From NCBI GenBank assembly GCA_937872445.1, contig CALMSL010000101.1:1-64000 (forward strand): 64,000 nucleotides of DNA. Reading direction: 5' to 3'. This DNA is from an uncultured Microbacteriaceae bacterium. Lineage in GTDB: Bacteria; Actinomycetota; Actinomycetes; Actinomycetales; Microbacteriaceae. The first letter of the stretch is position 1. Each line of letters opens with the position of its first letter. The notes under the pieces were generated by a model. That model saw only the letters and a list, made by a program, of their open reading frames with translations, was not told the origin of the DNA and made no database searches. Below, one piece after another: positions 2,896 to 62,800 of the stretch. Made by a program: the position numbers and the translations under genes.

Positions 2896-4095
2896 TCAAC
2901 GGGCTTTGTGGCTGTCCCAGCGGAGCGTCGCCGCGGCAAGGACTGTTGCGACCAGCGTCGCAGTCAGGATCGCGATCTTCGCTCCATCGGATTGCACAGC
3001 CCCAGGGAACGACAGCTCGGCAATGAGCAGGGATACCGTGAACCCGATACCGGAGAGCAACCCGACCGGGACGAGGTCGCGCAGGTTGAGCGTCTCCGGA
3101 AGGCGCAGTGCACTGAAGCGCGTGACGAGGGCGGTCGTGGCCAGCACGCCCACCAGTTTTCCGACAACAAGGCCGACCACGATCGCGGTCACCACGGGCT
3201 GCGCAAACAGGGCGCCGGCGCCGCCCGCATCCACGATCGAAACACCGGCAGCGAAGAACGCGAAGATCGGCAGGGCGACGGCCGCCGACCACAGGCGCAC
3301 GGCGTGCTCATAGTGGTGGGTGCGCGGGCGCGGTTCGTCGTAGAGGAGCCTCGCGGGAACGACAACGCCCAGCAGCACACCGGCAATGGTGGCGTGCACC
3401 CCGGAATCGTGCATGAGGGACCACGCCACGAGCGCGAGCGGGAGCAGAATCCACCAGCGCGGTTTGCGCATCCGAACGGCGAGGGCGAACACGGCAATGG
3501 CGAGGATCGCGAGCACGAGGGCGAGAATGTTGATGCCCGCGGTGTAGAACACGGCGATGATCACGATCGCCAACAGGTCGTCCACGACGGCTAGGGCAAG
3601 GAGGAATGTTCTCAGCGCCGTCGGCAACCCGCGGCCGAAGATCGCCAGAATCGCAAGGGCAAACGCAATATCGGTGGCGGTGGGAATGGCCCAGCCCCGG
3701 AGAGCGCCGGGGTCGCCGGCGACGAGAACAATGCCGATGTAGAGTGCGGCGGGAAGCACCATCCCGCCGATCGCCGCAAAGATCGGCACAGCAGCTTCCT
3801 TCATGTTCCGCAGGCTTCCCGCGACGAACTCGTGTTTGAGTTCCACCCCCACGACGAAGAAGAAGATGGCCAGCAGGCCGTCGGTTGCCCAGGCTGCGAG
3901 CGAAAGGTCCAGGTGCAGTGCTGCGGGGCCGACAACAACCTCCGACAGTTCGAAATAGCCGGCGCGCCACGGGGAATTTGCCCACACCAGCGCGATGAGC
4001 GCAGCGAAGACCAGGAGGCCGCCGCTCGTGGTTTCCAGAGTCAGCCAGCGGCGAACGCGCTTACGTCGGGAGGGGGTGATGGGGGGTTCGGACAT
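2896..4095 (-). CDS. nhaA: Na+/H+ antiporter NhaA
   Basis: 399 residues, usual family length, with about a dozen hydrophobic segments. It exchanges cytoplasmic Na+ for external protons and serves salt and pH homeostasis. Recognisable NhaA features are the FFFVVGVELKHEFV segment, the PTATDIAFALAILAIFG segment carrying the aspartate expected in transmembrane segment 5, and AVVDDLLAIVIIAVFY. A longer reading frame runs to 4164, but ATG 4095 has a GGAG ribosome site 7 bases upstream and removes a 23-residue non-homologous tail, so I start there. The gene converges on the glycosyltransferase gene with 48 bases between them, which hold a small CCACGG/CCGTGG hairpin without a T-run. It is divergent from the DUF1684 gene. 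Confidence 0.95.
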   Translation of the reverse strand: MSEPPITPSRRKRVRRWLTLETTSGGLLVFAALIALVWANSPWRAGYFELSEVVVGPAALHLDLSLAAWATDGLLAIFFFVVGVELKHEFVAGSLRNMKEAAVPIFAAIGGMVLPAALYIGIVLVAGDPGALRGWAIPTATDIAFALAILAIFGRGLPTALRTFLLALAVVDDLLAIVIIAVFYTAGINILALVLAILAIAVFALAVRMRKPRWWILLPLALVAWSLMHDSGVHATIAGVLLGVVVPARLLYDEPRPRTHHYEHAVRLWSAAVALPIFAFFAAGVSIVDAGGAGALFAQPVVTAIVVGLVVGKLVGVLATTALVTRFSALRLPETLNLRDLVPVGLLSGIGFTVSLLIAELSFPGAVQSDGAKIAILTATLVATVLAAATLRWDSHKAR

Positions 4096-10542: not shown

Positions 10543-13122
10543 GTGCAGATTCCCGACAGCGGCGACCCGGACCTCGTCTATTCCGCCTTCGTCGACTGGG
10601 CTTCCTCCGAAGGATTCACCCTGTACCCCGCGCAGGACGAAGCGATCATGGAACTTGTTTCCGGCGCGAACGTCATCCTCAGCACGCCGACCGGCACCGG
10701 CAAGTCTCTCGTCGCGGTCGCCGCGCATGTCGCGGCGCTCGCGGCAGGGAAACGCAGCTACTACACGGCTCCGATCAAGGCGCTCGTGTCCGAGAAGTTC
10801 TTCGCGCTCGTCGATATTTTCGGCGCGGAGACGGTGGGAATGGTAACGGGCGACTCGAGCGTGAACCCGGATGCGCCGATCATCTGCTGCACGCAGGAGA
10901 TCCTCGCGAACCTGTCGCTGAGGCACGGAGAAGACACCCCGGCTGACCTCGTGGTCATGGACGAGTTCCACTTCTACGCGGACCCCGAACGCGGCTGGGC
11001 CTGGCAGGTTCCGCTCCTGCGGATGCCGCGCACGCAGTTCCTGCTCATGTCCGCGACCCTCGGGGATGTCGACTGGCTCGCCGAGGATCTCACGAGGCGC
11101 ACCGGGCGGCCCACGGCATCCGTCACCGGGGTCGACAGGCCGGTTCCCCTGCACTATTACTACGCGACAACGCCCATCCACGAAACGGTCGAGGAGCTGC
11201 TGTCCACCGGCGAGGCACCGATCTACATCGTGCACTTCTCGCAGGCCGCGGCGCTCGAGCGCGCGCAGGCGCTCACGAGCGTGAAGATCATCGACCGCGA
11301 GCAGCGAGACGCGATTGCCGACCTCATCGGCGACTTCCGTTTTACGACGAAGTTCGGCCAGACCCTCTCGCGGCTCATCCGCTCCGGGATCGGCGTGCAC
11401 CACGCGGGCATGCTGCCCAAGTACCGCAGGCTCGTGGAGCAGCTCGCCCAGCGCGGGCTCCTGAAGGTCATTTGCGGCACGGACACCCTCGGGGTGGGCA
11501 TCAACGTGCCCATCCGCACGGTGGTGCTGACCGCGCTCACGAAGTACGACGGCACGCGGATGCGCCAGCTGAACGCGCGCGAATTCCACCAGATCGCGGG
11601 GCGTGCCGGACGGGCCGGGTTCGACACCGCGGGGACCGTCGCCGTTCAGGCGCCGGAGCACGAGGTGGAAAACGCGAGGCTCGTCGCAAAGGCGGGCGGA
11701 GATGAAAAGAAGCTCAAGCGCATGGTGCGCAAGAAGCCGCCGGACGGGTTCGTGTCGTGGGGTGAGCCGAGCTTCAGCCGCCTCGTCGCGGCAGAGCCCG
11801 AGCGGCTCGTCTCCAGCATGCGGATGAGCCACGCCATGCTGCTCAACGTCATCGGTCGGGGCGGCGACGCGTTCGCCGAGGTGCGCGCGCTCGTGGAGGA
11901 CAACCACGAACCGCGGCCGCGGCAGCGTGAGCTCGCCCGGCAGGCGCTCGCGATGTACCGCACGCTGCGCACCGCCGGGATCGTCGAGCAAAGTTATTCG
12001 GGGGCTCCCTTCGAGACGGCCTCCGGCCTCCTCAGGGAGCGGCATGAGAATCCGCACCCTGAGGAGATCGCCGAAGGCGATCGTCTCGAAGGGGGCCGGG
12101 CGGTGACCATCCGCCTCACGGTCGACCTGCAGCCGAACTTTGCGCTCAACCAGCCGCTCTCCCCGTTTGCTCTCGCCGTCATCGACCTGCTCGACCCTGA
12201 GGCGGCAAGCTACGCGCTCGATGTCATCTCCGTCATCGAGGCGACCCTCGAGGACCCGCGTCCCGTGCTCTCCGCCCAGGAGCACCGCGCCCGCGGCGAG
12301 GCAATCGGCGCCATGAAAGCCGAGGGCATCGAGTACGACGAACGGATGGAACTGCTCGAGGCGATCACGTACCCGAAACCGCTCGACGAGTTGCTGGAAG
12401 CCGCGTTCGAAACCTACCGCGCATCCCAGCCGTGGGCCGCGGACTTCGAGCTTCGCCCCAAATCGGTCGTGCGCGACCTGTACGAGAACGCCATGACGTT
12501 CAACGAGTATGTCGGCTTTCAGGGCATCGCGCGGTCGGAGGGCATGCTGTTGCGGTACCTTTCCGACGCCTTCCGCGCGATCCGCCAGACCATTCCGGAG
12601 TCGGCGAAGACGGAGGAGATCCAGGACCTCATCGAGTGGCTCGGCGAACTCGTGCGGCAAGTGGATTCGAGCCTCCTGGAGGAGTGGGAGGAACTCAGCC
12701 ACCCGGGAGCCGCGCACGACGATGAACCGGTCGTGCCGCCGCCACCGCCCTCCGTGGTCACGAACGAGCGCGCGTTCCGGGTGCTCGTGCGGAATGAACT
12801 GTTCCGCCGCGTCCAGCTCGCGGCCCTCGACGACGCCGAGGCTCTGGGCGAACTTGACGCCGAGTCCGGGTTCGACGCCCGGCGCTGGGGCGAAGCGCTC
12901 GACGCCTACTACGCCGTTCACGACCACATCGGAACGGATGCGGATGCCCGCAGTTCCGCGATGCTCATGATCGAAAAGACGCCCGAAGCGTGGAATGTCC
13001 GTCAAATTCTGGCCGATCCGGCGGGCGACCACGACTGGGGGATCAGCGCGATCGTCGACCTCGCCGAATCGGCCGAGCAGGGCGTGGCGGCCATCCGGAT
13101 CACGGGCGTGGGCGAACTTTAA
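10543..13122 (+). CDS. DEAD/DEAH-box helicase, DUF3516 type
   Basis: 859 residues. Superfamily 2 helicase motifs are in order: Walker A STPTGTGKS near residue 46, motif II DEFH in VVMDEFHFYADPERG near 140, motif III LMSATLG, and motif VI HQIAGRAGRAGF near 350. The C-terminal 400 residues match the DUF3516 extension of actinobacterial helicases. It is likely an RNA helicase in the cytoplasm, related in layout to Ski2-like enzymes; its target is unknown. The GTG start at 10543 has no strong ribosome site and no clear leaderless hexamer, so the exact start is less sure. Confidence 0.88.
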   Translation: MQIPDSGDPDLVYSAFVDWASSEGFTLYPAQDEAIMELVSGANVILSTPTGTGKSLVAVAAHVAALAAGKRSYYTAPIKALVSEKFFALVDIFGAETVGMVTGDSSVNPDAPIICCTQEILANLSLRHGEDTPADLVVMDEFHFYADPERGWAWQVPLLRMPRTQFLLMSATLGDVDWLAEDLTRRTGRPTASVTGVDRPVPLHYYYATTPIHETVEELLSTGEAPIYIVHFSQAAALERAQALTSVKIIDREQRDAIADLIGDFRFTTKFGQTLSRLIRSGIGVHHAGMLPKYRRLVEQLAQRGLLKVICGTDTLGVGINVPIRTVVLTALTKYDGTRMRQLNAREFHQIAGRAGRAGFDTAGTVAVQAPEHEVENARLVAKAGGDEKKLKRMVRKKPPDGFVSWGEPSFSRLVAAEPERLVSSMRMSHAMLLNVIGRGGDAFAEVRALVEDNHEPRPRQRELARQALAMYRTLRTAGIVEQSYSGAPFETASGLLRERHENPHPEEIAEGDRLEGGRAVTIRLTVDLQPNFALNQPLSPFALAVIDLLDPEAASYALDVISVIEATLEDPRPVLSAQEHRARGEAIGAMKAEGIEYDERMELLEAITYPKPLDELLEAAFETYRASQPWAADFELRPKSVVRDLYENAMTFNEYVGFQGIARSEGMLLRYLSDAFRAIRQTIPESAKTEEIQDLIEWLGELVRQVDSSLLEEWEELSHPGAAHDDEPVVPPPPPSVVTNERAFRVLVRNELFRRVQLAALDDAEALGELDAESGFDARRWGEALDAYYAVHDHIGTDADARSSAMLMIEKTPEAWNVRQILADPAGDHDWGISAIVDLAESAEQGVAAIRITGVGEL

Positions 13123-59481: not shown

Positions 59482-60867
59482 GTGGCCACCGCCTCCTCCC
59501 TCGATGCCGTCATTTCTCTAGCCAAACGCCGCGGGTTCGTGTTCCAGGCGGGGGAAATTTACGGCGGATCACGGTCCGCGTGGGATTACGGTCCTCTGGG
59601 CGTCGAGCTCAAGGAGAACATCAAGCGCCAGTGGTGGAAGGCGATGGTCACCTCGCGCGACGATATCGTCGGGCTCGACTCCGCCATCATCCAGCCCCGC
59701 CAGGTGTGGGTCGCCTCCGGGCACGTCGGAGCGTTCACCGACCCGCTCACCGAGTGCCTGAACTGCCACCGCAGGTTCCGCGCCGACCACCTCGAGGAGG
59801 CGTACGAGGAAAAGAAAGGGCGGGCCCCGGAGAACGGGCTGGCCGACATCGTGTGCCCGAACTGCGGGACGCGCGGACAGTGGACCGAACCGCGCGACTT
59901 CCAGATGATGCTGAAGACGTACCTCGGCCCCGTGGAAGAGGAAAGCGGCCTGCACTACCTGCGGCCGGAGACCGCGCAGGGCATTTTCGTGAACTTCAAC
60001 AACGTGCTCGGCGCATCCCGGATGAAGCCGCCGTTCGGCATCGCCCAGGTCGGCAAGAGCTTCCGCAACGAGATCACGCCGGGGAACTTCATTTTCCGCA
60101 CGCGGGAATTCGAGCAGATGGAGATGGAATTCTTCGTCGAGCCCGGCTCGGATGAGGAGTGGCACCAGTATTGGATCGACGAACGGGTGAACTGGTATGT
60201 CGATCTCGGGTTGAACCGCGACAATCTTCGGCTCTTCGAGCATCCGAAAGAGAAGCTGTCCCACTACTCGAAGCGCACCGTCGACCTCGAGTACCGTTTC
60301 CAGTTCCAGGGCAGCGAGTGGGGCGAACTTGAGGGCGTGGCGAACCGCACGGACTTCGACCTGACGACGCACAGCGAGCACTCCGGAACCGACCTCTCCT
60401 ATTTCGACCAGACGAAGAACGAACGCTGGACGCCGTACGTCATCGAACCCGCAGTCGGCCTCACGCGGTCGATGATGGCGTTCCTCATTGACGCGTACCA
60501 CGAGGATGAGGCGCCAAACACGAAGGGCGGTGTCGACAAGCGCACGGTGCTTCGGCTCGACCGCAGGCTCGCCCCGGTGAAGGCGGCCGTGCTGCCGCTG
60601 TCGCGAAACGAGGAGCTGTCGCCGATCGCGAAGCAGCTCGCGGCGGATCTGCGCAAGTTCTGGAACATCGACTTCGATGACGCGGGTGCCATCGGGCGCC
60701 GCTACCGCCGTCAGGATGAGATCGGTACGCCGTTCGCGATCACGGTCGACTTCGACTCGCTCGAGGACAAGGCGGTGACCGTGCGCGAACGCGATTCGAT
60801 GGCGCAGGAGCGCATCTCCCTCGACCGCCTCCAGGGCTACCTCGCCGAGCAGCTCCTCGGCGCGTAG
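59482..60867 (+). CDS. glyS: Glycyl-tRNA synthetase (alpha2 type)
   Basis: 461 residues. Class II synthetase with motif 2 [30 protein letters not shown] near residue 193 and motif 3 with the [10 protein letters not shown] segment near 330. A zinc-type CLNC...CPNC pattern is present near 92-132. It is the homodimeric form used by actinobacteria. The GTG start has GGAG eight bases upstream. TAAACT at 59415-59420 is a possible -10 box. No T-box is seen. Confidence 0.96.
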
Positions 60868-60879
60868 GCGACCCGCGTG

Positions 60880-61014
60880 AGCCCAACCTCGACATCCGCC
60901 CCCATCTCTTTTGAAAATTCAGGAATCCACGTCAGCGACGGGCGTGAGAGGGTGTTTTTCCCCGGAATCCGACGTGGATTCCTGAATTTCCGCGGATCTC
61001 ACGTCGGTTGGGCT
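60880..61014. repeat. Large imperfect palindrome P1
   Basis: Outer arms AGCCCAACC (60880-60888) and GGTTGGGCT (61006-61014) frame an inner perfect 19-base inverted repeat, 60915-60933 with 60971-60989, beginning AAATTCAGGAATCC. The loop is 37 bases. The inner arm shares its AAATTCAGGAA core and CGTC end with palindrome P2 at the other side of the next gene. It lies in the gap after glyS. Confidence 0.8.
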
Positions 61015-61106
61015 TCCACTCCCACACAGCGCACGTATCCCTAGACAAGTAGGAAATTGCGGTCGAGCTGGATCCCGGGGCGTTGCAGTGGCCGCAGGAT
61101 TTGCGG

Positions 61107-62108
61107 ATGGAGTCCGTTCGGAGGATGGTCCAGCATCTCGGTGGGCTCGCGCAGAAGCAGGAACTCATCGCTCTGGGCGCACACGACTGGGCGCTAACCG
61201 CTGCCGTTCGGAGCGGTTCCGTCATCCGCGCGCGGCAGGGTTGGTACTCAACTCTCGACGACAACGATCCTGCCTTGCGCGCCTCCAGAGTCGGAGGCAG
61301 GTTGACCGGAATGTCCGCCCTCATCGCCCGTGGCGCCTGGACCTGGATCGACCATCCGCTGCACGTGTCAGTTCCTCGCCGTGCAAGTAGGCTCCGCGAG
61401 CAATGGGACCGATTCCGGCGGCTCAATCCAACCGAGGCGGAAGATGTTGTCATCCACTGGGATGACGATGCCATCCTTGCGGAAGGTGATGTGACGAGTG
61501 TGTCTCTGGCTGAGGCGCTTCGGTCAGTGGCCCTTGATGAGCCATTCGAAGTCGCGGTCGCGGCATTCGACTGGGCGTTCAAGTCGGGGTCAATCGACAG
61601 GATGTCGTTCGAAAGCATCCTGCTGGCTCTACCCGACGATGCTCGGATGATTGCGCATTGGATCGACCCGCGGTGCGACAGCATTCTCGAGAGTGTCGTC
61701 CGCAGCTGGCTTCAGATTGCCGGTTACCGTGTGGTCAGTCAGGTGAGAGTGGGCGATATCGAACGGATCGACCTCGTCGTCGAGGATGACGTGGCCATCG
61801 AGCTTGGCGGCAGAACCCATGAGGGCAGAAGGGAAGCGGATTGGCGCAAGAATGTCAAGATCACGGCGGAAGGCCGACATCCGATTCTTGCGACCTACTC
61901 GATGGCCAGATACGAATTCGCCTCGATTCTCGAAGCGATCGAGATCGCGCTGCGGCAGCGGCATCCGGAGCGACCCCAGGCTGGAAATTCAGGAACTCGC
62001 GTCGGCTCCGCCCCGTTCGGCCGCAGAAAATGGCGGTTGCTTGATTTCTCAGTGACGCGACTTCCTGAATTTCCAGCAAACGGGCCGCGGTGGCCTGGCC
62101 GGCAATGA
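61107..62108 (+). CDS. DUF559-type nuclease with AbiEi-like N-terminus
   Basis: 333 residues. The N-terminal part (about 1-80) is a winged-helix domain like that of AbiEi antitoxins (GGLAQKQELIALGAHDWALTAAVRSGSVIRARQGWY). The C-terminal domain resembles DUF559/Vsr-type endonucleases: Asp222 in RIDLVVED and Glu232 in IELGGRTHEG fit a PD-(D/E)XK site. No AbiEii-type toxin gene is next to it, so it is an orphan. Residues 292-333 are encoded within and just past palindrome P2, so the natural C-terminus may have been replaced. ATG 61107 has an AGGA ribosome site; TTG 61083 is the alternative. Function unknown; DNA processing or defence is possible. Confidence 0.75.
   Translation: MESVRRMVQHLGGLAQKQELIALGAHDWALTAAVRSGSVIRARQGWYSTLDDNDPALRASRVGGRLTGMSALIARGAWTWIDHPLHVSVPRRASRLREQWDRFRRLNPTEAEDVVIHWDDDAILAEGDVTSVSLAEALRSVALDEPFEVAVAAFDWAFKSGSIDRMSFESILLALPDDARMIAHWIDPRCDSILESVVRSWLQIAGYRVVSQVRVGDIERIDLVVEDDVAIELGGRTHEGRREADWRKNVKITAEGRHPILATYSMARYEFASILEAIEIALRQRHPERPQAGNSGTRVGSAPFGRRKWRLLDFSVTRLPEFPANGPRWPGRQ
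61980..62077. repeat. Large palindrome P2 within the 3' end of the nuclease gene
   Basis: Arms at 61980-62003 and 62054-62077 are 24 bases each with one mismatch, around a 50-base loop. The arm begins GCTGGAAATTCAGGAAC. The AAATTCAGGAA core is the same as in P1, 1.1 kb away, and both end in CGTC. The palindrome is translated as the last part of the nuclease gene. Confidence 0.85.
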
Positions 62109-62146: not shown

Positions 62147-62800
62147 GTGAGCGAATCCATCAAAGTTGACATCTGGTCCGACGTGCAGTGCCCGTGGTGC
62201 TACATCGGCAAGCGCAAATTCGAGGCGGGAGTTGCCGAGTTCGGCGGCGAGGTCGAGGTGGAGTATCACTCCTTCGAGCTCGCGCCGGATACGCCGGTCG
62301 ACTTCGACGGCACTCCGGCCGACTATCTTGCCCAGCGCAAGGGACTGTCGCTCGACCAGGTGGGGGAGATGCTCGAGCGTGTCACCGGAATCGCCGCGCA
62401 GGTTGGTCTCGACTACGACTACGGCTCGGTGCACCAAACGAACACGGTCAAGGCGCATGAGTTGCTCCACTACGCCAAGTCGAAGGGCCGTCAGGTGGAG
62501 ATGAAGGAGCGCCTGTTGAAGGCGTACTTCGTCAATGGCGAGCACGTCGGCCGCATCGAGGATCTTGCCGACATCGCCGCCGAGCTGGGCTTCGACCGCG
62601 CCGACGTTGTGCGCGTCCTCGAATCGAACGAATTTCTTCCCGCGGTGAAGGCAGATGTCGCCCTCGCGCAGGAGTACGGCATCCAGGGCGTGCCGTTTTT
62701 CGTGATCGACGGCAAGTATGGTGTGTCGGGTGCACAGGATGCATCGACGTTCGCCGCGGCGCTGCAGCAGGTACAGGACGAGAAAGTGGCACAGGCATGA
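62147..62800 (+). CDS. DsbA-family oxidoreductase (FrnE-like)
   Basis: 217 residues. A thioredoxin fold with active site CPWC in WSDVQCPWCYIGKRKFE near residue 13, and the cis-Pro region GIQGVPFFVIDGKYGVSGAQ near 180, typical of cytoplasmic FrnE-like disulfide oxidoreductases. GTG 62147 gives the common N-terminus of relatives (SESIKVDIWSD); ATG 62105, overlapping the nuclease stop, is an alternative without support. No ribosome site is clear. It overlaps the small ORF as ATGA. Confidence 0.9.
   Translation: MSESIKVDIWSDVQCPWCYIGKRKFEAGVAEFGGEVEVEYHSFELAPDTPVDFDGTPADYLAQRKGLSLDQVGEMLERVTGIAAQVGLDYDYGSVHQTNTVKAHELLHYAKSKGRQVEMKERLLKAYFVNGEHVGRIEDLADIAAELGFDRADVVRVLESNEFLPAVKADVALAQEYGIQGVPFFVIDGKYGVSGAQDASTFAAALQQVQDEKVAQA

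Follow-up and report, generated by a model that had tools for sequence, protein, structure and literature searches.

A Vsr/DUF559-type nuclease gene paired with a private palindromic site in Microbacteriaceae

Genes of the DUF559/AbiEi-like kind occur widely and are little understood. Several described systems resemble parts of the arrangement reported here. In REPtrons, a RAYT (TnpA-REP) gene is flanked by REP/REPIN repeats, which are dispersed in the genome and are also found inside genes (PMC3733652). AbiEi antitoxins repress their own gene by binding, as monomers, to paired inverted repeats of 23 bp that lie upstream of it, with gaps of 3 bp or 13 bp (PMC7319586). Rickettsia palindromic elements (RPE) are short palindromes that interrupt unrelated protein genes without breaking the frame (PMC10969869), and the lengths of Paramecium internal eliminated sequences (IES) are quantised by the helical repeat, which was read as a DNA loop in the excision complex (PMC3464196). 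The MTES_1575 REase domain is named in PMC3710099. Here, we describe a gene for a predicted nuclease with two related palindromes, P1 and P2, in a stretch of 64,000 nucleotides (the window) from an uncultured Microbacteriaceae bacterium (assembly GCA_937872445.1, contig CALMSL010000101.1, positions 1 to 64,000). Genomes, loci and contigs are numbered with G, L and C, respectively.

The preliminary description, made from the letters of the window, had reported perfect or nearly perfect palindromes with a common arm core on both sides of a DUF559/AbiEi-like gene. The arms are as described, since those of P1 are complementary at 19/19 positions and those of P2 at 23/24, and both palindromes have the core AAATTCAGGAA and the CGTC end. 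At ≤1 mismatch, the core occurs four times in the window (0.30 ± 0.59 expected), a number reached in 0/100 shuffles. The placement was right for P1, which lies between glyS and the open reading frame (ORF) of the nuclease. P2 does not stand beyond the gene: its DNA encodes the residues GNSG...PEFP, and because the last nuclease codons are thus read from P2, the palindrome lies over the 3' end of the reading frame.

The pairing of nuclease and palindrome recurs across genomes. Nuclease relatives at E≤1e-25 were found in 136 of the 398 genomes of the host's bacterial family, and the pattern AAAYTCAGG...CCTGARTTT in 43 of the 398, while the reversed pattern gave 0 matches in every row counted. 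Among the 38 genomes with at least three elements, 34 have the nuclease at E≤1e-40 (odds ratio 97, P=2e-27; the genomes belong to one family and are not independent). The exceptions are G005, G048, G301 and G318, with completeness of 89 %, 98 %, 63 % and 81 %, respectively. When the 30 best nuclease loci were scanned blindly for inverted repeats, GGAAA[T/C]TCAGG-type palindromes were obtained, with the strict form upstream of the gene in 25/30 loci, at the 3' end in 25/30 and at both in 22/30. The blind scan set consisted of 81 nuclease loci (80 distinct, as L080 equals L085), and a repeat was called strong when the best inverted repeat reached at least 17/20. Strong repeats were found upstream in 50/81 loci (1/243 shuffles) and at the 3' end in 37/81 (0/243 shuffles), and inside the nuclease gene in 0/81. 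In the 34 loci where the best repeat reached at least 16 on each side, the arm substring in common averaged 15.5 nt within the same locus vs 8.5 nt across loci. Finally, strong matched bracketing was observed for 13/41 nuclease genes vs 0/79 other genes not adjoining a nuclease. The 41 were taken from 50 named-genome loci, nine being left out, mostly for contig-end cuts, plus L204 (near-identical to the window) and L241. The relatives with names include those from Salinibacterium, Glaciihabitans, Lacisediminihabitans, Frondihabitans, Frigoribacterium, Schumannella, Arenivirga, Galbitalea, Microcella and Rhodoglobus, and others come from metagenome-assembled genomes. The link is therefore seen across genera, with lineage-specific arms, and the nuclease-site pairing is well supported. 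In the open-licence PubMed Central (PMC) literature, no account of a link between DUF559/AbiEi nucleases and palindromes was found by title or abstract, and no description was found there of Vsr/DUF559/MTES_1575 nucleases with private palindromes. We regard the pairing as a new system assembled from domain families that are already known.

The arms are alike on both sides of a gene and differ between nuclease subfamilies, which carry CGGCAA[T/C]TCAGG, TCGACAACTCAGGA, CTCCACAATTCAGGAG, GTTGTGCAGGACAT, CTTTCATCATTCAGGAG, GTTCGCAATTCAGGCA, CCAAATGAAGG or GTCCGAAATGCAGGA. More distant nucleases have unrelated arms such as CACGACCCGGGAAC, AACGACGCCAATTCT and GATCGTACTGACCCGTAT, the last from a different family of the class. 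In the wider set, 7/22 loci (L263, L264, L267, L280, L281, L284 and L285; counted by eye) have strong palindromes on either side of the gene, with arms that match. Paralogues within one genome usually have different arms (G000, G287, G005, G006) and orthologues have the same arms; two cassettes in G028 have one common dialect. As most examined subfamilies have their own site beside the gene, the presumed target of the nuclease could be read from its flanks, which would provide many natural enzyme-site pairs for studies of protein-DNA recognition.

The palindromes were also found to be dispersed, and so are not unique to the window. The genome of the window (G000; 3.06 Mb in 214 contigs) has 14 palindromic elements, two each on C13 and C101 and one each on C16, C48, C76, C95, C121, C145, C164, C166, C190 and C213. 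It contains 27 exact 11-mers, of which one is a lone arm on C200, and two elements have one mismatched arm. Many elements are intergenic, and that on C95 lies between convergent genes. Three of the 14 lie within open frames, namely those of purH (C76), an HrpA-type helicase gene (C164) and smc (C190), and elements at matching places were found in purH and smc of G003 and in purH and the helicase gene of G005. Compared with M. tuberculosis PurH (3zzm), on which the boundaries were judged rather than on a close element-free relative, the purH insert adds ~28 residues between two aligned domains. For the helicase and smc genes, insertion is presumed from the open frame through the element. Genes around these elements and around L106, L109, L263, G028 and G001 were called with a simple in-house caller. 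The identities of purH, the HrpA-type helicase, smc, dapD-like and citrate synthase genes were tested, and some further genes are presumably leuA, fumC, phoH and recO.

Six PF18741 matches are present in this genome, and only the window gene adjoins a AAATTCAGG palindrome. The nuclease paralogues on C76 and C193 have other dialects. As had been predicted, the C76 dialect, AAATGAAGG, also forms a dispersed family: seven elements were found in the genome (control 0), two bracketing the C76 gene and five elsewhere. For the C193 dialect, a single element 3' of the C193 gene matched the pattern used.

The central protein combines an AbiEi-like N-terminus with a Vsr/DUF559-type PD-(D/E)XK C-terminus (Table 1). 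The DUF559/AbiEi-like identity proposed earlier was borne out, though the window protein's own profile support is weak (E=1.3e-4 to Pfam MTES_1575 REase, under the curated cut-off, and the PADLOC value in Table 1). The ATG at 61107 is likely the start codon rather than the TTG at 61083, because it is aligned with the starts of relatives. The PADLOC AbiEi model was matched by 14/15 members of alignment A1, and the N-terminal region is likely a DNA-binding winged helix. For the window protein and 14 relatives, Pfam matches at E≤0.1 were obtained to MTES_1575 (13/15), AbiEi_4 (9/15), DUF559 (7/15) and Vsr (1/15). Residues D230 and E240 are invariant in 15/15 divergent sequences and in 46/46 closer ones. 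Two solved structures were matched by sequence, and the better of them, the endonuclease-like 3hrl, was a weak match (E=0.006). We consider the protein to be a putative Vsr/DUF559-type PD-(D/E)XK nuclease, with cleavage predicted. By profile, it shares its C-terminal family with the Vsr/DUF559/MTES_1575 nucleases, and the private palindromes are the feature added here. Its N-terminal region is related to those of the AbiEi antitoxins (S. agalactiae AbiEi and M. tuberculosis Rv2827c), whose two gaps differ by about one helical turn (PMC7319586). Unlike these antitoxins, it has a nuclease C-terminus, a second, 3' site and dispersed sites, and no AbiEii-like (DUF1814) toxin gene adjoins it at the window locus, which alone was checked; the next gene is of the DsbA family.

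The lengths of the elements fall into discrete classes. In a scan that allowed lengths of 29-200, with part of the loci fetched by a 68-98 bp pattern, 135 distinct AAAYTCAGG elements measured 74-77 (46 elements), 85-88 (76) and 96-98 (10), the others being 67, 119 and 135; thus 132/135 are in three classes 11 bp apart, with 0 at 78-84 or 89-95. When 120 loci chosen by protein only were recounted, 81/82 elements were again in the classes (20, 54 and 7) and one was of 67. Among 41 elements, nearly all of them of other dialects (the window dialect is represented by a mutated copy, L127, and a few elements are mutually orthologous), the inner spans were 53 (4 elements), 60 (1), 63-65 (19), 73-77 (13), 83 (2) and 87 (2), which departs from a uniform null (P=0.0005). 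A weak central motif, ~CCGCG..TTTCCGCGG, was observed in the 88-mers (16.9 bits vs 6.9 ± 0.2 in shuffled columns with equal restarts).

No covariation was found between the arm tails of 64 elements from seven genomes, with 425 matches within elements vs 435 ± 12 when tails were permuted between elements of the same genome. The arms of one element are therefore best taken as two copies of a recognition half-site and not as a stem, and since the lengths follow the helical repeat of the duplex, the elements look like paired duplex half-sites. The suggestion in the preliminary description that they are hairpin sites cut by the nuclease is thus not supported. When ten alignments of the window's genome with G003 or G005 were compared, for elements picked by exact cores in the former, identical positions numbered 178/180 in the cores, 188/200 in the tails, 402/449 in the loops and 2446/2730 in the flanks, and the arms (366/380) were more conserved than the loops (P=1.6e-4). 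The arms also evolve in concert: in 27 loci with two strict-form elements, tails agreed at 4.96/10 positions within the same genome vs 3.68/10 between orthologous upstream elements (P=0.0002), and the loop control was negative (P=0.17 and 0.50).

These results bear on whether the palindromes are REP/RAYT-like hairpins or transcription terminators that stand near the gene by chance. As the preliminary description had pointed out, the REP/RAYT geometry is an apt comparison, with repeats on both sides of an enzyme gene, dispersed in the genome and also within genes (PMC3733652). The intergenic position of many copies and one terminator-like match inside P2 also fit. However, terminator-like matches are no commoner than in shuffles (1 vs 0.8), helical quantisation of total length is unexpected for hairpins, and bracketed control genes numbered 0/79, as given above. 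In Rfam, none of the matches was above the gathering score (two were sub-threshold, E 0.056 and 0.78). Y1_Tnp (Y1/HUH transposase) was not found in the Pfam scan of the window protein and its 14 relatives, where the matches beyond the four families named above were chance. The missing covariation and the Rfam result led us to reject the readings as REP hairpins and as RNA stems, and the shuffles led us to reject simple terminators; we regard this explanation as a whole as very improbable. The locus shares the REPtron outline and fails two defining features, enzyme type and hairpin: the protein is AbiEi-like plus PD-(D/E)XK without a Y1 domain, the sites are duplex half-sites, and the copies per genome are few.

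Signs of clustering and movement were also observed. The check proposed earlier, whether copies cluster around DUF559 genes, came out positive in three of the four genomes tested: with the bracketing pair excluded, strict-form elements lie within 50 kb of a nuclease gene in 6/6 cases in G117, 9/16 in G173 and 6/9 in G044 (P=1e-5 each, the lowest value that the test can give; a few elements are tandem copies). Around the nuclease in L106 (G117) and L109 (G044), six strict-form palindromes per 20-kb stretch stand among housekeeping genes, an arrangement that the model given below explains only loosely.

Near-identical bracketing repeats are present at L077 and L263; the bracketing elements are direct repeats of 116 bp (96.6 % identical) in G001 and of 79 bp (100 % identical) in L263. 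The two same-dialect cassettes of G028 lie at different places, and their genes have a DNA identity of 76 %. In G001, a dapD-like gene and a citrate synthase gene flank the cassette, and a lone AAATTCAGG palindrome lies between the same genes in the window's genome and in G003. This was found by comparing the neighbours of 110 cassette loci with 94 element loci from few genomes. As for empty sites in close strains, that is one clear case of cassette vs lone site. In addition, the glyS-dsbA junction of G005 is empty (~110 bp) through loss or because the cassette was never gained; glyS and DsbA there are 97 % and 92 % identical, five dispersed elements are kept, and a stretch in the junction resembles the outer P2 end, by eye only. 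The C13a element is missing in G003, but the site cannot be called cleanly empty, as ~90 more bases are missing with the element. In the glyS-dsbA gap, where other genomes carry the nuclease cassette, a reverse-strand gene that we take to be short-chain dehydrogenase-like was observed at L257, L258 and L260 (G001, G002 and G004).

We interpret these loci as a two-part selfish or self-regulating DNA system, formed by the AbiEi-like/PD-(D/E)XK protein and its private palindromic site, and we put the probability of this reading at about 0.6. The private site would consist of two inverted half-sites of ~20 bp (here ~TTCGGAAAYTCAGG and a lineage-specific tail) facing across a whole-turn spacer. By homology, the AbiEi-like N-terminal region would bind each ~20-bp half-site as duplex DNA, and two protomers on one helix face would meet over the centre of the spacer, with the nuclease domains near the centre; the helical-phase rule predicts this seating of the protein on DNA. 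Because of the AbiEi-type binding model, we suggest that an occupied 5' copy may repress the nuclease gene in the AbiEi style. If the sites are nicked or cut, subsequent repair or recombination could duplicate and spread the site, sometimes as a whole site-gene-site cassette. Lone sites would be left behind, and the near-identical bracketing copies, in-frame inserts and local clusters would come from the same process. Binding, cutting and mobility are what we infer from the sequences. The idea in the preliminary description of a nuclease-mobilised palindromic element thus stands as to the pairing with a nuclease, and mobilisation by it is only suggested by the purH insertion, the cassette vs lone site, the near-identical copies and the G028 cassettes.

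A further possibility, which we advance tentatively and hold somewhat short of even odds, is a class of mobile element run by a PD-(D/E)XK nuclease alone, without its own DDE, HUH, serine or tyrosine recombinase. Each lineage would then evolve a site dialect that all its sites in the genome follow, and lone palindromes, some inside essential genes, would be footprints comparable to solo long terminal repeats. To our knowledge, this enzyme class is not known to drive a mobile element alone; if true, such a candidate element would account for the in-frame inserts of purH and similarly conserved genes. Rickettsia palindromic elements resemble the present ones in their in-frame insertion into unrelated protein genes (here purH, with open frames in helicase and smc). 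They differ in that an enzyme is paired with the element here, whereas none is named for RPEs in the part of PMC10969869 drawn on. The Paramecium IES likewise have short inverted ends, fast-evolving interiors and helically quantised lengths (PMC3464196), but they are eukaryotic and are excised by a domesticated piggyBac-type transposase, and the likeness is seen here from sequence alone.

Several observations can be explained without movement. In the main rival explanation, a transcription factor of the AbiEi type that carries a nuclease-like domain uses the 5' palindrome as its operator, the dispersed ones are operators or bound boundary sites of other genes under selection, and nothing moves. 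Autoregulation through paired inverted repeats in two members of the AbiEi family (PMC7319586) agrees with such a pure regulon, as does a promoter-like match overlapping the left arm of P1 (1 found vs 0.3 expected). Arm constraint and concerted evolution fit a factor that drags its sites along, helical phasing fits cooperative dimers, and several elements have matching positions in G000, G003 and G005. The regulon is less easily reconciled with a second copy over or after the 3' end of the gene, with copies in the three open frames and between the convergent genes on C95, or with catalytic D and E invariant in the closer sequences. The bracketing repeats of 79-116 bp, the two G028 cassettes and the cassette vs lone site all point to movement or duplication of DNA. 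We therefore consider a pure regulon unlikely.

Other results weigh against the two-part system. G005 and G048 keep five and nine palindromes without a nuclease at E≤1e-40, and the AAAYTCAGG form is missing from 29/63 nuclease genomes, where many loci have other dialects and some show nothing clear (e.g. L161 and L183). In the wider set, the loci other than the seven matched ones are weaker or blank. Clustering was not observed in G148 (0/3), and among the matches listed for G028, some elements are far from nuclease genes. Only two of the 14 elements in the window's genome touch the window nuclease gene; the arms of the 14 are alike but their loops are not related, with identities that average 37 % and reach at most 58 % over 91 pairs, which gives no sign of a recent burst of copying. 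The cassette of the window clade is mostly at a single place, as both glyS and dsbA are neighbours in 45/70 loci, one of them in 3 and neither in 22. The cassette vs lone palindrome is a single-site finding, and the probability of chance coincidence amounts to some per cent by a rough estimate. At L282, a 53-bp direct repeat (98 %) is present on both sides with no clear palindrome. Lastly, no target-site duplication was found in 132 elements when offsets of 0-15 and lengths of 2-10 were tried (best z=2.7 among 144 tests).

The last result led us to reject classical transposition with target duplication. It also speaks against the elements being miniature inverted-repeat transposable elements (MITEs) of an unrelated DDE transposon, linked to the nuclease by shared history only. 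Terminal inverted repeats, lengths of 74-98 bp, unrelated interiors and insertions inside genes are all MITE-like. But element dialects go with nuclease subfamilies, and the two dispersed families of the window's genome each bracket their own nuclease, so we give this origin next to no credence.

It was also considered whether the protein is a defence device, a nuclease held on chromosomal sites that cleaves incoming foreign DNA, with the sites acting as a reservoir, as a self-tag or as an autoregulatory sensor. The AbiEi-like N-terminus was recognised by a defence-system library, the nuclease domain is of the Vsr type, and the recognition sequence is strongly diversified between paralogues. 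On the other hand, no known defence partner was found among the neighbours in the window (glyS and the DsbA-family gene), and insertions inside genes are left unexplained. No relatives of the nuclease were found in viral contigs or phages, no exact palindromes of the window dialect in viral contigs, and one weak match in plasmids (28 % identity, E=3e-9). Defence is thus quite improbable, and a viral or plasmid origin was rejected on these last matches.

Table 1 Coordinates of the nuclease gene, its palindromes and neighbouring or related features (window positions unless a locus or contig is given)
Feature	Position	Strand	Details
Nuclease gene	61107..62108	+	334 codons incl. stop; ORF opens TTG 61083; AbiEi-like N-terminus, Vsr/DUF559-type PD-(D/E)XK C-terminus (predicted)
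AbiEi-like N-terminal region	61110..61391	+	residues 10-103 (counted from 61083); PADLOC AbiEi E=1.6e-5
PD-(D/E)XK region	61692..61952	+	Pfam match residues 204-253, extended by alignment; D230 = 61770-61772, E240 = 61800-61802
P1, paired inverted half-sites	60915..60989	.	core-to-core 75 bp; arms 60915-60933 and 60971-60989; 74-77 length class
P1 with outer GCCCAACC / GGTTGGGC extension	60881..61013	.	60881-60888 with 61006-61013; by eye, sequence alone
P2, paired inverted half-sites	61985..62072	.	core-to-core 88 bp; full arms 61980-62003 and 62054-62077; 85-88 length class; over 3' end of nuclease ORF
glyS (glycyl-tRNA synthetase)	59482..60867	+	Pfam domains; left neighbour of cassette
DsbA-family gene	62147..62800	+	ORF opens at 62090; right neighbour of cassette
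Element in purH	L025 13716-13792		intragenic
Element in HrpA-type helicase gene	L030 3257-3332		intragenic
Element in smc	L032 1733-1809		intragenic
Second dispersed family, AAATGAAGG...CCTTCATTT	C76 12834-13998; C4 49152; C13 26297; C76 3164; C92 17629; C102 4511		C76 12834-13998 with bracketed DUF559-like gene

The left neighbour of the cassette, with domains assigned by Pfam, is presumably glyS. A further inverted repeat with the core CCCTTCGAG (TCCCTTCGAGACG / CGTCTCGAAGGG) was observed elsewhere in the window, at 12003-12018 / 12082-12097, and the reversed control gave 0 in the window. Paired or clustered copies of this core are present on C13 (~3721-3829, L022) and C164 (L030 4001-4128) of the same genome and at L124 of G003, and the repeat may be an additional palindrome family.

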